DNA from: Capitulum mitella
Taxonomy: Eukaryota > Arthropoda > Thecostraca > Pollicipedomorpha > Pollicipedidae
Length of the DNA: 64,000 nucleotides
NCBI GenBank assembly: GCA_030062745.1
Contig: CP099848.1
Location: 6,627,685-6,691,684, forward strand
Direction of reading: 5' to 3'
The notes under the pieces are model-generated. The model saw nothing but the letters and a program-made list of their open reading frames with translations. It searched no databases and was not told where the DNA came from. Made by a program: the position numbers and the translations under genes. Positions 57,503 through 64,000 of the stretch are shown one piece after another; position 1 is the first letter of the stretch, and each line of letters starts with the position of its first letter.

Positions 57503-60500
57503 CTGCGAGATAACCAAAAAGGCGTCAAAAATACATGGCCGGCATTTGGAAGTAAACAAACTCCAGTCTGCTAGGAGTCCCTTGCCTCAGCTGAGACGCA
57601 AGGCTTCCGTTTTTGAGAATACACAGTGAAAAGAGATAAGCATGGGTTTGCGATGGCAATAAATGGACTGTTTGCAGGTTACTTAAGGACCTGTTTTTCT
57701 TTGAAACTCATATGTATTTCTTATGACGATCGTGACTCATTTCTATTCATTTCGCGCAAAAGAGCACCGAAATAGTTAAATGTAGGGCTCACTTGTAATT
57801 GAACGTGTACATCCATAACAAATGTGAGCGCCTTCCCATGATCGGAACAACTGGAATGGTGTGAGGTGCGGTCCAAATAAATGGAGACTGTTTGTTTTAC
57901 CTTGTATGGTAAATGTCATTAATATCTAGTCGTGCTAGTCGCACGTTTAAGTACATGTATTTGTTAGCGCACTGCGCACGCATACGTACCCTTTCTTATT
58001 TTTCCGACAGAGGGTTTGAGCACAAGATGCACTGATTTTGTACTTGCTCTCGATCTGAAACAAACAGAACCGACAGGGTTAATGCTCTGCACATCTGTGC
58101 CTGACCGGGTTATTGTTGCAATTTCTTCTGTCGGTCTTTGGTCCGATCCGACAGTCCGGAAGGTTACAGGACCGAAAGAAAAAGGGGACGGGCGCGACGC
58201 AAGGACATAGCTTGGCGCGCAGTGAGTCGATCAATCTAATCCCAGCTCACCGTTGGCAGAGGTGCGCTTTTTGCCCTTACGATAACTTAAGAGCTCTTGA
58301 AAGGTACGAAATGCGTTTTGTCACACCCGAGTATTTGACACATTGTGAAACATTTCGTATTATTGCAGGATTTTATCTGCATGATTACAGTCTACACAAA
58401 GAACTGCTGAGTTAACTTAAGTACAAAATTGATTACGCTAGCTGCAGCAAATTTCCAATCCAATCGTGTGACATGCAGCACTTTTCTGGTGCCCTCAACA
58501 ACAGTGCCACCCTCTCTACAGTGGCGCCATCTGAGCCTCGCTCACCGCGTGCAGCAGGCCGATGGTGGTAGGAGGAACCACGTGCAGCGGCGTGTAGAGC
58601 TCCTCGCGATCCTGGCGCACATACAGCATGACCCGCTGACTGAGCGGCGGCGAGAGCCGTGCCCGCTTGCCGCCGGGCATGAACAGGCCGTCGTCATCCT
58701 TCCTCTCCCTGTGAGAGAGGTCACAGTCGACGTCAGAGGCCGCCAGCAGACCACGAGCACAGACCGCCGGCCAGTAGCGCAGCCAGGATTTTGGCAACGG
58801 GGTCGATGCTGAAACAGAAAGGCTTCACAGTACTCTTACCATTTGATTGCAAACAACGAGATATTGACGGTACCATATAGAGCACTCCAGATTTTGAAAA
58901 TAAAAATACATTAGTATTAAATTTTGAGATGCTTTTTTTTTTAGAAAATAATTTGTGGTAATGGCCAACTTGTGGGATCCTCTGAACATAAGTAGGGTCA
59001 GCTGACCCTTCTAACCCCCTCTGGCTACGCCACTGCCGCTAGCCAGCACACCATTTCTGCAGGCCGACATCAAATCGGCACACGCCACGACGCACCATTC
59101 GAGAAACCAGAGACCGAATCGACTCCACAGCTGTCCTCCGACGCCCTCAGCGCAGCGCGGGTGTTGCAAGCGTTTCAAAACGGAACACCATTAGCATCAT
59201 GACAACGTATGGTAATGGAGCGAAACCTGGGGCCGAAGCGGGTAGCGTCAGCAGCGGGGGCGCCGCGGCGGCCAACTCTGGACGTCGCCTCGCGCCCGTG
59301 GCCGCCGGCGGCGCAGCGCAAGCAAAGCGCAGGCGCGGCGGGGGCGGGGCGGCACTCACCCCTCGGACGCGGCGACAGGGTTCGTAGGGAAGTTGTAGTG
59401 AAACTTGAGGGAGGCAGGGTTGGCGGGGGGCGGCGCCTGCGGGGGCACGGGCGAGACGGCCGCCTCGTTGCACCTGGTGAGCCGGCATCAGGACGGTTAG
59501 TCACGTGACATGCCAAGCCGGTGACGCTCGCCACGGGTCGCATGCAAAGCGCGGCGCGGGGGCGGAGCCGGCCTAGCAAGGGTCACTATCACAGGGCGGC
59601 ATCTGCAGGCGCACTGATGGACGTCCTCTATTTGCATTGGGTCTGGTCGGCATTTAGCGATGCAGCCAAGGCAAGCAAAAGTAAACAGAAACGAGGGCGC
59701 CGCGTGCTTAAGAGCGAGGAGTTTTTACATTTGAAGGTTCATGCGATGATTGTTTCGCACCTCGGTATAAGCCAGCTCAGCAGTCATTTTTTGTGTTTCG
59801 TTTCTAATTTCCAGAAAAAAAGATTAGGCGCAAAACGAACCCGTTTTGCGAGACAGGCATGACTTGCAGGAGACGCTTGTCTGGCTACTGTGTTTGGAGA
59901 GTTCAGAGATGGTTGCCAAACATTAATCATGAATAGTTGCATAGCACTCAGTCATCCGGACATGATGGCAGTCTATTTTAACAAGAACTACTGTCAACAA
60001 ATTAACACTTTGGTCACTGGCCTTTGGCCATAAGCTACTGACCATTGGCCTCAAATGGAAAAATGTACGACTCCCGTCAGCGTTCGAACTCTTTCCTCTT
60101 ACCAGCGGTCCATGACGCACAAGGAAACAGATATGAGGAAAAGAGACAGATGGCAGAAGAAGGATTAGTTAACGAAATCAAAGGCAGATGGCAGCAGGCA
60201 TGTACTTACAAGCTACTCTCACTGTCCTGCTGCGCATAATAGTTCTGCAGCTCCGTGTTCCCAATCTGAAAACGCAGGTGTTCGTTACGAATTGTCGTAT
60301 TCTATTGGAAATATGCAAATGAACATGTTTACCGCAGAGAAATGTTTTTTGGGCGAGCTGAAAAGTTTTCTGCAGAAGCCGACATGATTTCCGCCATGCA
60401 GCTGCCACTGCTGATCACAGCCAAACACCACGCCTTTAAGCATGCGTTGCAAACAGGTTTACTCTACATATTAAGACTGGCAGGCGGCCGACATTAATCC

Positions 60501-63500
60501 TGTCGGCCAGGGCGTCGTGCCGTCGACTGGGGACCTGGCGTCGGGCGGTGCTGGCGGGGGAGGGGGCGCTCCCCTCGGGACGCCTCGAGAGGCCTCGGTC
60601 GGTGCCGGGTGTGGGCAGTCCCCGCACCTTCTCTGGGTCGTCGCTCGGCTGGAACAGCGTCGGCGGCTTCGTCGTATCGGCCATCGCGTAGAACTCGGAG
60701 CGCTCACACGAGCCGTGGTACATCTCCTCCATCTTCTTGCGGCCGGTGGCGGTCATCTTACGTTTGGAGGCGCGCCGCTCCTCGTCCCGCGTCTTGCGCT
60801 CGGCACCCTGCGAAAGGCCAGGTCAGGTCAGGTCAGGTCAGACGAGTCACTGATTCCCTGTCGCACCAGGTCTCTCACCAGGTCACTCAGGCCATCACTC
60901 TGCGTATATTCTTCACCCGACGACCGGAAAAGAACAGTTCGTTGGCGGCCTATCGAAGAAAACCCGATTATGTAGATGTAGCCCGCTTTTTCGTCTGTCG
61001 GATATTTGTCACGTGACGTAAACGGCGCCATTAGCGGCGTTTCACTTTTAAAAGGGCTCGGAGCCCACATCTGGGGAGGCCGAGCCGCCGACGAAAAAGT
61101 CCACGCCCGGGGCGACAGGGAGCCTCGCCTGATGGACATGCGCCCCCGGTGAAAGTGATTTGGGCCCAGCGACAGATGCATGCTACTCTGCAGCACGCGG
61201 CGCGCTGCACAGCAGGAAGATTTGGAACGGCTTTTTAGAACAAGGTCAGAGTGTGCTCTCTTCCAGCGGGATCGACATCAAGCGAATCATAAAGCGGCAT
61301 TAATTTGCGGCTGAGTGCCGCATTTAAAGACGCCGGAGTGCAGGGCGGTATTACGACCTGAGCGGTGGTCGGGCGCACGCGGACCGGCGCCGGTCGGACC
61401 CGGACCAGCGGCCAGCCGCGCCATGTGTAGCGGCGGCAGTGGCGGCGCGCCGCCGCTCGCCGCTCGTCCGTCATTAGCGGTATGACAGACTGCGCCGGGT
61501 GTCCGGTGTCGGGTGATTTACCGACGCCGGCTGCAGGGCTGCACGGCCGCCTCCATTGTTCGAACGGCGGGCGCGGGCGACCGGGCTCGAGACGTGTTCG
61601 GTGCCCTCCAACGTCGTCCAACGGCGGCCAGCAGCGCTGTCCGCCGTCCAAACGGGACGCTGTGCGGGGATTGACAAAGACGAGCGAGAACTTTTATGGT
61701 CTGCCGATGCAATGATTTCAACCGGCGCCGGGCAGGTCCAGGTGAAGTCTGTCGCACTCAGCGGACCACTGATCAGAAGTCTGGGACCGCAGTCATTGTA
61801 CCACGGAACGTTAGTCTGGGAACCACAGTCAGCGGACCACGGGTCGGCAGTCTGGGACCGCAGTGAGAGGACCGCGGGTCGGCAGTCTGGGACCGCAGTG
61901 AGAGGACCACGGGTCGGGAGTCTGGGACCGCAGTGAGAGGACCACGGGTCGGGAGTCTGGAACCGCAGTGAGAGGACCACGGGTCGGGAGTCTGGGGTCG
62001 CAGTGAGAGGACCACGGGTCGGGAGTCTGGGGTCGCAGTGAGAGGACCACGGGTCAGAAGTCTGAGGGTCGCCTGATCGGCCAGTTTGAGGAACAGGCAC
62101 AGCCAGAGCTGGACGTTAGCTGGTGTTCGTGAAAAGATCACGCTGACCGCGTTTGGCCAGTTGAAGGAGAGTATATCCGTGTGACGATCACGCGCATTAT
62201 GCCAACGGAAGCGGCAGCGTGCGGCGTTCACCAGCGAGCTCACAGCTGATGATGAAGTAGTATAGTGCATATCAGAGATGTCACTTTGTTTTCTTTTGTG
62301 AGAGCCCTGACCCATGCTGTTTTATGCCCCCCAGTCTTGGTTTGGGCCCCAGTGTTTTTTTGGCAGAATTTTGAATCAAGGAAAAATTTTAAAAAAATAC
62401 GTAAGGTCTGTTTTCCTTGGGCATAAGCTGCTCAAGTACAGGACATCTGTCCCGTGATCGTGATTTTTTCGTGATCGTGATCCGATCCCAATTCGTGATC
62501 CAACCCTAGTTTCAGTTTTGGGTTAGAATATACTCTTGCAGACCAAATGGGAAAAATAAATCGAAGAAGAAAAATGGGGAAAAATCGGGACAACGAAAAT
62601 AAAGTGATCGAGATCCGAGGAGTTTTTTTGTGTGGGGTAAGAAAGCCAAGACTTGGTTTTGCCCATACTCGGTGGCTGGATACGCCACTGGGTTAAGCCT
62701 CCCCTAGTTTTTTTTTTTATCGACATGTCTGAATCATAGTTACAAAGCCGCTGCTGAAACCCTTTGTTTAACTGAGCGATCCCACGCTCATTTCTAATAC
62801 ATGTATGATGTTCAGTCTGTCTTTTAAAACGGTGCAACCGAAGCACAGTTCATGGAGGTGTTGCCCTTGTCTTGGTCTATAACGTATGAGTTTATGCTTA
62901 CTATGGAGAACTGACGTCAAAGCAGACCCAGTATCCATTGCATGTTAGCATGCACCGACGAATTTATCACACGGTTTGGATAGGCGGTTGTCCGTTTTAC
63001 ACACACCTTGTCGCAGAACGATTTGACCTGGCAGTAGGCTCGGTGAGAGACGGGAGCGTTTGGGTCCCGGTAGTCTTCGTACGTGTCGATCTGTATGTGC
63101 AGAGGCAGTCCCTGCAAGCACACCCAGGCCGTCAGCTGAGCCCAGTTCGTAGAAGCCGCCGTCGACGCAGAAATTTGATACGACATCCCAGACTCGCATC
63201 TAAGACGAGGCTGAGTGAAAGTTTTTATTCAAATCATAAACGAACCCGACGACCGGCCACGTGATTTAACTCATGGCCTCGTTTTGACACGGCAAGCAAA
63301 CAAGGACAGTTGGCAAGGCTGCCCACGGCATCTCAGGCATAATTACGCATGAGCTGCTAGGGCAAATGACTGCTGCTCTGCAGCTGAACTCGAAGGTGAG
63401 GCCCAGTTGTCTCTCACCTTGACGCCTTTTTGGCTACTGAAGTCAGTACTAAAGCACTGCAAGGCGATGCTTATCTGCAATCAAGGTGTGATATCAAAAC

Positions 63501-63579
63501 GGTTTCTAACTGTTTCTCTCACCTTGACGCCCTTTTGGCTACTGAAGTCTGTACTCAAGCACTGAACGGCGATATTGAT
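57376..63579 (-). CDS. grh: Grainyhead transcription factor, C-terminal half (partial gene)
   Basis: Minus-strand exons are 63523-63579 or 63418-63474 (alternative copies), 63007-63111, 60628-60807, 60210-60265, 59360-59473, 58546-58708, 57990-58054 and 57376-57502. They join in phase for 867 nt, giving 288 residues and a stop. The first three encode the end of the CP2-type DNA-binding domain ([54 protein letters not shown]). A variable linker follows ([26 protein letters not shown]). The last three encode the dimerisation domain ([47 protein letters not shown]). Grainyhead is a nuclear factor that controls epidermal and epithelial genes in animals. The N-terminal activation region and most of the DNA-binding domain lie beyond the right edge. 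The tandem duplicate exon is unusual. Confidence 0.95.
57990..58054 (-). CDS. grh: grh dimerisation-domain micro-exon
   Basis: 65 bp, acceptor TTGTTTCAG|ATC and donor AAAGG|GTACGT. It encodes [16 protein letters not shown] followed by RKNKKG, filling the exact gap expected between LLHA and VIATMDDD. Two cysteines replace residues that are not cysteine in the fly protein as I recall it. Confidence 0.9.
58546..58708 (-). CDS. grh: grh dimerisation-domain exon 1
   Basis: 163 bp, acceptor CTCTCACAG|GGAG and donor CACGCG|GTGAGC. It encodes a basic KRARL segment, then [19 protein letters not shown] and [10 protein letters not shown], the opening of the C-terminal dimerisation domain. Confidence 0.95.
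59021..59035. mobile_element. hAT-like terminus fragment in a grh intron
   Basis: CTGGCTACGCCACTG matches the right end of the element at 29481-30182. No matching left end was seen nearby, so this is the remnant of a truncated insertion between grh exons. Confidence 0.4.
59360..59473 (-). CDS. grh: grh proline-rich linker exon
   Basis: 114 bp, acceptor TCACCAG|GTGC and donor GAGG|GTGAGT. It encodes a Pro/Ala-rich stretch and [11 protein letters not shown], a short block conserved in arthropod Grainyhead linkers. The phase agrees on both sides. Confidence 0.85.
60210..60265 (-). CDS. grh: grh short linker exon
   Basis: 56 bp, acceptor GTTTTCAG|ATT and donor CTT|GTAAGT. It encodes [19 protein letters not shown] (the last codon is split), in phase with both neighbours. 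The linker is less conserved, so support comes from splice sites and frame. Confidence 0.85.
60628..60807 (-). CDS. grh: grh exon [12 protein letters not shown]...SDDPEK
   Basis: 180 bp, 60 codons, acceptor TTTCGCAG|GGT and donor AAG|GTGCGG. It holds the basic [17 protein letters not shown] segment, known to lie at the DNA interface in this family, then [20 protein letters not shown], a Grainyhead hallmark. Confidence 0.95.
60820..60841 (-). repeat. grh: Four tandem CTGAC units upstream of a grh acceptor
   Basis: On the minus strand CTGACCTGACCTGACCTGAC lies 10-35 nt upstream of the acceptor of the GAERK exon. CTGAC fits the metazoan branch-point consensus, so the acceptor has several equivalent candidate branch points. 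Confidence 0.6.
61020..61480. promoter_or_regulatory. grh: GC-rich patch in the large grh intron
   Basis: This part of the 2.2-kb intron (60808-63006) has the same GC-rich-with-AT-rich-islands texture as the 5-23 kb domain, including GGCGCCATTAGCGGCG and CGGCATTAATTTGCGG. An intronic enhancer is an inference from texture only. Confidence 0.25.
61755..62070. repeat. 35-bp minisatellite in a grh intron
   Basis: Eight or more units of 35 bp around GGACCGCAGTGAGAGGACCA followed by CGGGTCGGGAGTCT. The CAGTGAGAGG word recurs at 61861, 61896, 61931, 61966, 62001 and 62036. Earlier units are more diverged. Since 35 is not a multiple of three, the long minus-strand frames across it are artefacts. Confidence 0.9.
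62676..62690. mobile_element. hAT-like terminus fragment
   Basis: GCTGGATACGCCACTG resembles the CAGTGGCGTA-type right end of the other hAT-like pieces. The left end was not found. It lies in the grh intron. Confidence 0.3.
63007..63111 (-). CDS. grh: grh exon [13 protein letters not shown]...FCDK
   Basis: 105 bp, 35 codons, acceptor TGCTTGCAG|GGA and donor AAG|GTGTGT. It carries the strongly conserved [12 protein letters not shown] and [13 protein letters not shown] strands of the DNA-binding domain. Confidence 0.95.
63418..63474 (-). CDS. grh: grh DNA-binding-domain exon, copy A (tandem duplicate)
   Basis: 57 bp, phase 0 on both sides, acceptor GATTGCAG| and donor AAG|GTGAGAG. It encodes [19 protein letters not shown]. 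It differs from copy B at 8 of 57 bases and 3 of 19 residues (N to S, V to L, L to F), and the last 11 residues are identical. Only 48 nt of intron separate the two, so both are unlikely to be spliced into one mRNA. Confidence 0.85.
63523..63579 (-). CDS. grh: grh DNA-binding-domain exon, copy B (upstream in the gene)
   Basis: 57 bp, phase 0 on both sides, acceptor TGGTTGCAG| and donor AAG|GTGAGAG. It encodes [19 protein letters not shown], nearly the same as the segment I recall from fly Grainyhead, so it looks like the ancestral version. Confidence 0.88.
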
Positions 63580-64000
63580 CTGCAACCATTGAGTCATCTT
63601 GTCAGAACATCTAATGGTCGACTCAACCCATTGCGCGTATATTTATCAAGCTATTACTATCCACGCGGCAAATCAGATACAGCTTAAATCACCGCCTGCA
63701 CATCATAAACGCGACTGAAAGTAGAACAACGAAAAGTGGCTACGTTCAAGGACAGGGCGTAACGCGAAAAGGTGGCAAACAAAGACAACTAACGCAGCCA
63801 CTCGCGATTTTACCGCTCAGATCCAGGACAGCGACGGCCCGGCCCACGGGTGGATTAACCAACCCCTTCTAGCACCGACCTCATCGCTAACCACTCGGAC
63901 GCCGGCCTGAACCAGGTCAGCTGGCGGGACTCAGCCGGGCCCGGTCATCTGCGGACCCGATCGCCGCACCCAGTTCCAGCGCCGGCTGCCAACGCCGCCG
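63580..64000. other. Upstream grh intron sequence at the window edge
   Basis: The next upstream exon should encode the CIEEVSHNAIAVYWNP-like part of the DNA-binding domain. I find no such frame here on the minus strand, so the intron continues past the right edge. Confidence 0.6.

Follow-up and report, generated by a model that had tools for sequence, protein, structure and literature searches.

A tandem pair of probably mutually exclusive exons in the DNA-binding domain of a grainyhead gene of Capitulum mitella

The 64,000 nucleotide (nt) stretch of Capitulum mitella DNA analyzed here, referred to as the window, corresponds to C10:6627685-6691684 (contig CP099848.1, designated C10) of a 477-Mb assembly of 16 contigs (GCA_030062745.1), which was also the genome used for the whole-genome searches. 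Close to the end of the window, on the reverse strand, lie two 57-nt exons of a grainyhead gene, exon A (63523..63579) and exon B (63418..63474), both of phase 0/0 and separated by an intron of 48 nt (63475..63522). The exon preceding A is just beyond the window edge and ends ...NPLESSAK in phase 0, and the next common exon, of 35 residues and beginning GLPLHIQ, is at 63007..63111 (reverse strand). All four splice sites of A and B are intact (GT-AG), and the two donors are identical from -8 to +8. The exons share 49 of 57 bases (86%), and with eight base differences they differ at three of 19 residues (positions 2, 5 and 8; variants I[N/S]IA[V/L]QC[L/F]), the SSQKGVK stretch being the same in both. 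Like length, same phase, homology, a common protein region and intact splice sites are features of tandem mutually exclusive exons, and it is probable that A and B form such a pair.

An earlier note on this DNA had described the two exons, their phase, splice sites and identity, and had called them a tandem duplication; the sequence and a self-comparison of positions 63000-64000 agree with it on both counts. In that comparison the A/B pair was the sole strong repeat (74 bp, 87.8% identity, E 8e-23; runner-up E 1.5), with boundaries near the splice sites. The flanks were identical at 30 of 48 positions at the most favorable breakpoint (shuffled mean 25.5, P 0.048). Some shared ancestry is still visible in them, as the 48-nt intron aligned with the sequence preceding A more closely than did 485 of 500 shuffles. 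An artificial duplication in the assembly was considered and is unlikely because of the eight exon differences and the diverged flanks. When positions 63400-63600 were used to search the whole genome at the DNA level, the only matches among the best candidates scored were the locus itself and one exon of a second grainyhead gene, on contig C12.

A whole-genome search with the CP2 profile identified three CP2 genes among the 12 matches listed: besides the grainyhead gene of C10, contig C12 carries another grainyhead (2.02-2.04 Mb) and C1 an LSF-like gene; one weak C10 match at 19.0 Mb was set aside. By similarity the C10 gene belongs to the Grainyhead subfamily, nearer to GRHL than to LSF/TFCP2, and its joined exons with B score 207.6 bits to GRHL1 and 71.9 to TFCP2. 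The score to PF04516 (CP2) is 199.3 bits with A, 196.7 with B and 146.2 with neither (cut-off 25). Exon A covers profile positions 150-170 and exon B positions 144-170, and when the joined B form and the A segment were aligned to the GRHL1 structure 5mpf, both filled one single slot of the CP2/Grainyhead DNA-binding domain. Profile and structure alignments therefore bear out the proposal that each copy supplies a segment needed once before GLPLHIQ, and this segment is present once in GRHL1, GRHL2, TFCP2 and the C12 paralogue. The equivalent exon of the LSF-like gene reads STEFTPKKHGGEKGVPF. The exon spans chain positions 124-142 of 5mpf, counted by hand on the alignments. The related structure 5mpi has Q in place of the R of 5mpf at chain position 180; if this is residue 427, as the label R427Q implies, then chain position plus 247 presumably gives GRHL1 numbering. 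The exon would then correspond to GRHL1 residues 371-389, including K386-G387, which we take to be near the DNA.

The C12 gene (C12:2022976-2035671) is open in the aligned exons and has the same exon plan there, a comparison that covers the aligned exons, with the N-terminal exons outside the mapping. It carries one copy of the duplicated exon (C12:2028033-2028089). The C10 gene likewise looks intact in the exons examined. The order of exon and gene duplication is indicated differently by two lines of evidence. Identities between the three exons (A-B 49/57, A-C12 46/57, B-C12 47/57) weakly favor an exon duplication after the C10/C12 gene split, while position 5, which is Leu in B and C12 but Val in A, GRHL1, GRHL2, TFCP2 and the LSF-like gene, favors one before it. 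Phe at position 8 is found only in B. Local alignment of A, B and the C12 exon with the introns upstream and downstream of the C12 exon gave nothing above shuffles that would represent a relic of exon A; the C12 exon matched the C10 downstream intron with P 0.015, one of 12 comparisons. No outside relatives were found when a 60-residue grainyhead exon was searched against the genome-contig and viral-contig collections. For thoracican barnacles, 16 chromosomes and an ancient whole-genome duplication have been reported (PMC11331182). Two pairs of kinesin genes look like duplicates (C10:2927340-2933218 with C1:12494658-12501454, and C10:3565983-3567359 with C1:4272152-4273193), perhaps derived from the whole-genome duplication.

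Between A and B there are 4.5 synonymous differences over 10.3 sites and 3.5 nonsynonymous differences over 46.7 sites, giving synonymous (dS) and nonsynonymous (dN) divergences of 0.65 and 0.079 (Fisher P 0.025 or 0.003 for the two classes of difference, depending on rounding). The exons are also more alike than their flanks (49/57 versus 30/48, Fisher P 0.007). Had one copy drifted without any selection, the expectation would be 10.5-13.4 nonsynonymous differences, compared with the roughly 3.5 seen (P 0.014-0.064 for three or four at most); a cruder simulation with eight neutral changes in all gave P 0.027. Both copies are therefore likely to be under constraint, on evidence that is modest and partly ambiguous. 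Pooled values for C10 and C12 (dS 0.48, dN 0.118) are off, as the GLPL exon pair was compared one base out of frame, but the A-B values are unaffected by this.

The 48-nt gap is far below the introns estimated elsewhere in this genome. Sizes were estimated from neighboring exon matches of four Pfam families (40 chaperonin, 29 myosin, 92 kinesin and 21 adaptin pairs), with input from 60 of 62 chaperonin rows and from every row listed for myosin, kinesin and adaptin (87, 135 and 42, respectively). The resulting 182 introns had a minimum of about 156 nt and a median of 497.5 nt, and none was below 150 nt, so the gap between A and B is under a third of the shortest. Close neighbors are detectable by a profile search, since A and B were themselves reported apart although their matches are only 24 nt from each other. 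These estimates miss introns that are read through within a match, and ten in-match inserts of at least 30 nt lie outside the 182. One of them, a 99-nt insert in a kinesin match (C9:24058980), has the look of a spurious extension when read by eye, and the others are of 36, 42, 42, 57, 66, 234, 267, 306 and 384 nt. A candidate branch point in the 48-nt intron is TTTTGAT, placed by eye, with its A at intron position 29; the branch point used may instead lie in exon A or further upstream. Any branch point within the intron would be less than about 50 nt from the donor, because the intron is only 48 nt, and about 50 nt is the donor-to-branch-point limit described, mainly from vertebrate work (PMC7969005, PMC5740500). 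The suggestion that this intron is too short for comfortable splicing is thus supported by the absence of introns below 150 nt among the 182 and by the branch-point limit, and the gap, lying below the estimated usable range, is of the kind expected to lead to steric exclusion. The estimates also agree with the introns of the B. improvisus NAK1 gene, which are about 190-1500 bp with a first intron of 3-5.8 kb (PMC3793950), and a mean intron of 2,077 bp is given for Pollicipes (PMC8917513). If the 48 nt were retained, 13 further residues would be followed by an in-frame TGA, and if they were spliced out with A and B joined, a second 19-residue copy would be inserted in frame.

Both donors can be drawn into short hairpins, with arm positions counted by hand on the reverse strand. 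The donor A arm, TCAAG/GTG (63520..63527, slash at the splice site), is a perfect 8-nt complement of an anti-donor arm, CACCTTGA (63481..63488), within the acceptor tract of B (P 0.010, 300 shuffles). The donor B arm, AAG/GTGAG (63413..63420), is likewise complementary over 8 nt to CTCACCTT (63393..63400), 18-25 nt into the intron following B (P 0.013). The donors compared numbered 19, taken from both grainyhead genes with exon boundaries chosen by eye, and only A and B had an 8-nt complement downstream (+9 to +68); the other 17 reached at most 5 nt, and the donor of the C12 exon 4 nt. Among 44 AGGTRAG-like sites in the sequence examined, three reached 8 nt, namely donors A and B and the B hairpin when read on the opposite strand. 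Folded alone, the stretch from donor A to acceptor B has an energy of -17.8 kcal/mol against -8.7 for shuffled sequences (z -4.16, 0/200 shuffles as low). In a second run it gave z -3.32; of 300 background windows, one was as low. It was also the lowest of 29 distinct splice-site windows in the two grainyhead genes, a set from which several acceptors were left out. A possible hairpin over acceptor A (63577..63636, reverse strand) is weak (z -1.85; 5.7% of 300 background windows as low). The mean predicted unpaired probability is 0.12 for donor B and 0.15 for donor A. The shared donor sequence is able to pair with either anti-donor arm (-16.6 and -14.2 kcal/mol), but with nearly all of the predicted pairing being local (cross-pairing 0.01), the fold gives no indication of competition between the arms. 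The 48-nt intron did not align with the downstream flank of B above shuffles (288/500 as good), and a common origin of the two anti-donor arms is therefore unsupported.

Taking these data together, we infer that both exons are used, that their use is exclusive and regulated, and that the hairpin of the gap participates. The upstream exon (...SSAK) would be joined to either A or B, and the chosen exon then joined to GLPLHIQ..., so that either choice would yield one complete CP2/Grainyhead DNA-binding domain. Joining of A to B would be prevented because a 48-nt gap is too small to hold a donor and a sufficiently distant branch point, and the fold of the gap would also pair donor A with the acceptor tract of B. 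The earlier note had gone on to propose that the gene could make two Grainyhead DNA-binding domains. Two versions of one slot do exist, but since only three residues differ and SSQKGVK is the same, the two different domains may be only slightly different. An altered DNA specificity is perhaps unlikely, because the three differing residues all lie outside SSQKGVK; any effects are more likely to be subtle ones on folding or stability, or to consist of regulation through splicing, than to involve a new DNA motif.

A number of observations weigh against mutually exclusive use. The proposed isoform switch is a prediction from sequence, and the three residue differences are conservative. The energy of the donor B hairpin is ordinary (z -1.25 and -0.74), the fold of the whole 261-nt region is unremarkable (z -1.06; z -1.94 for a 147-nt part), and the hairpin search was prompted by a prior look at a fold. 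Five of the in-match inserts (36-66 nt) are free of stops and represent possible short introns elsewhere in the genome, although the lack of stops makes coding loops the likely explanation. The length of 57 nt is divisible by three, so that products of double inclusion or of skipping would keep the frame and escape nonsense-mediated decay, and exclusion by frameshift does not apply here. Joining A and B does not lower the PF04516 score, which is 214.5 bits in two stretches. Lastly, when the cruder simulation placed three, four or five changes on one neutral copy, outcomes with at most two residue changes and no stop were not improbable (P 0.54, 0.25 and 0.10, respectively).

This last result also speaks for a rival situation, in which only one of the two copies does the work and its neighbor is a leftover of the duplication, silent or barely used. 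There are only 57 bp on which to judge, the C12 gene carries a single copy, and of the tandem pair of the barnacle NAK1 gene only one copy was seen in cyprid cDNA (PMC3793950). We judge a relic unlikely, given that neither copy has lost its frame or a splice site, that the donors are identical from -8 to +8, and that synonymous and flank divergence is high where nonsynonymous divergence is low. Inclusion of both A and B, by which the domain would contain the 19-residue strand and loop twice, would preserve the frame and is tolerated by the Pfam profile, but it would have to remove an intron less than a third as long as the shortest of the 182 estimated, it would depart from GRHL1, GRHL2, TFCP2 and the C12 paralogue, in which the segment occurs once, and it would have to overcome the hairpin in which donor A is tied to B's acceptor tract; it is highly improbable.

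The in-frame TGA of the 48 nt raises another prospect, that a closed hairpin causes acceptor A and donor B to define a 162-nt poison exon, resulting in less Grainyhead or a truncated protein. The most stable hairpin is indeed the one that hides donor A and acceptor B. Such an arrangement offers no explanation for the preserved coding sequence of B, the predicted pairing covers donor B as well as donor A, and we regard this arrangement as quite improbable. A further proposal is that of a self-contained splice gate. Here, the exon would have been duplicated together with a donor-covering stem-loop, the 48-nt intron would fold donor A onto acceptor B while a second arm covers donor B, and opening of either would select the domain or leave a composite exon containing a stop. 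With this gate in one of the two grainyhead genes and the other fixed as B-like, exon and gene duplication would divide the same task. We put this forward tentatively and consider it, on balance, doubtful. Mutually exclusive use of A and B remains the reading that we prefer.

Comparable arrangements are known. Exons 4a and 4b of human OGDH are mutually exclusive, with a short intervening intron and branch points less than about 50 nt from the donor, and stable hairpins are predicted there over the branch points (PMC7969005). The grainyhead pair differs in its 48-nt gap, in belonging to an arthropod transcription factor, in having a stem of donor with acceptor tract, and in being predicted from sequence alone. 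Competing RNA structures built from duplicated stem arms are known from Dscam and srp (PMC6071210). A and B resemble them in having two identical donor arms, each followed by a complementary arm, a pattern that could be anticipated had an exon been duplicated along with a stem-loop, but the pairing predicted for A and B is nearly all local. Exons 18 and 18b of FOXP1 are mutually exclusive within the DNA-binding domain of a transcription factor, and the two FOXP1 forms are changed at critical residues and favor distinct motifs, whereas SSQKGVK is the same in A and B (PMC11701043). Exons 11a and 11b of barnacle NAK1 are tandem and presumed mutually exclusive, but belong to a different gene and are common to other arthropods (PMC3793950). 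The Grainyhead gene family itself makes several splice forms (PMC7471608), and the Daphnia grainyhead gene is listed with an alternative 5' splice site in exon 12 rather than with mutually exclusive exons (PMC7318467). In the present genome, several adjoining copies of myosin profile segment 377-436 were seen at C14:17197973-17199021, C15:16425920-16428593 and C16:5450234-5453643, and probably belong to the established class of tandem alternative exons of muscle myosin.

Grainyhead regulates epithelia and cuticle and is conserved. Its known isoforms use other exons or starts, and none is known to swap this DNA-binding segment. The literature searched, outside which most subscription papers fall, yielded no paper linking grainyhead to mutually exclusive exons of this kind, and a text search of that literature with peptide strings also found none. 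Tandem mutually exclusive exons are an established class, to which the grainyhead pair probably adds a member. A splice switch inside the Grainyhead DNA-binding domain, if true, would be a new route for tuning this regulator, in an animal with a second grainyhead gene that lacks the duplicated exon. The 48-nt gap and splice-site hairpins would provide a compact case for how tandem exon duplication turns mutually exclusive.

Three further exons of the C10 gene were located downstream on the same strand. The first (60628..60807) codes for the end of the DNA-binding domain, the second (60210..60265) specifies 19 residues, and the third (58546..58708) is conserved in the C12 paralogue; the boundaries of the last two were set by eye. 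At window positions 1-57000, no clear protein gene other than grainyhead was seen when the 45 longest of 124 open frames were read by eye over their first 110 residues. A 35-bp minisatellite of 8.6 copies (window positions 61763-62064) lies inside an intron of the C10 grainyhead gene.

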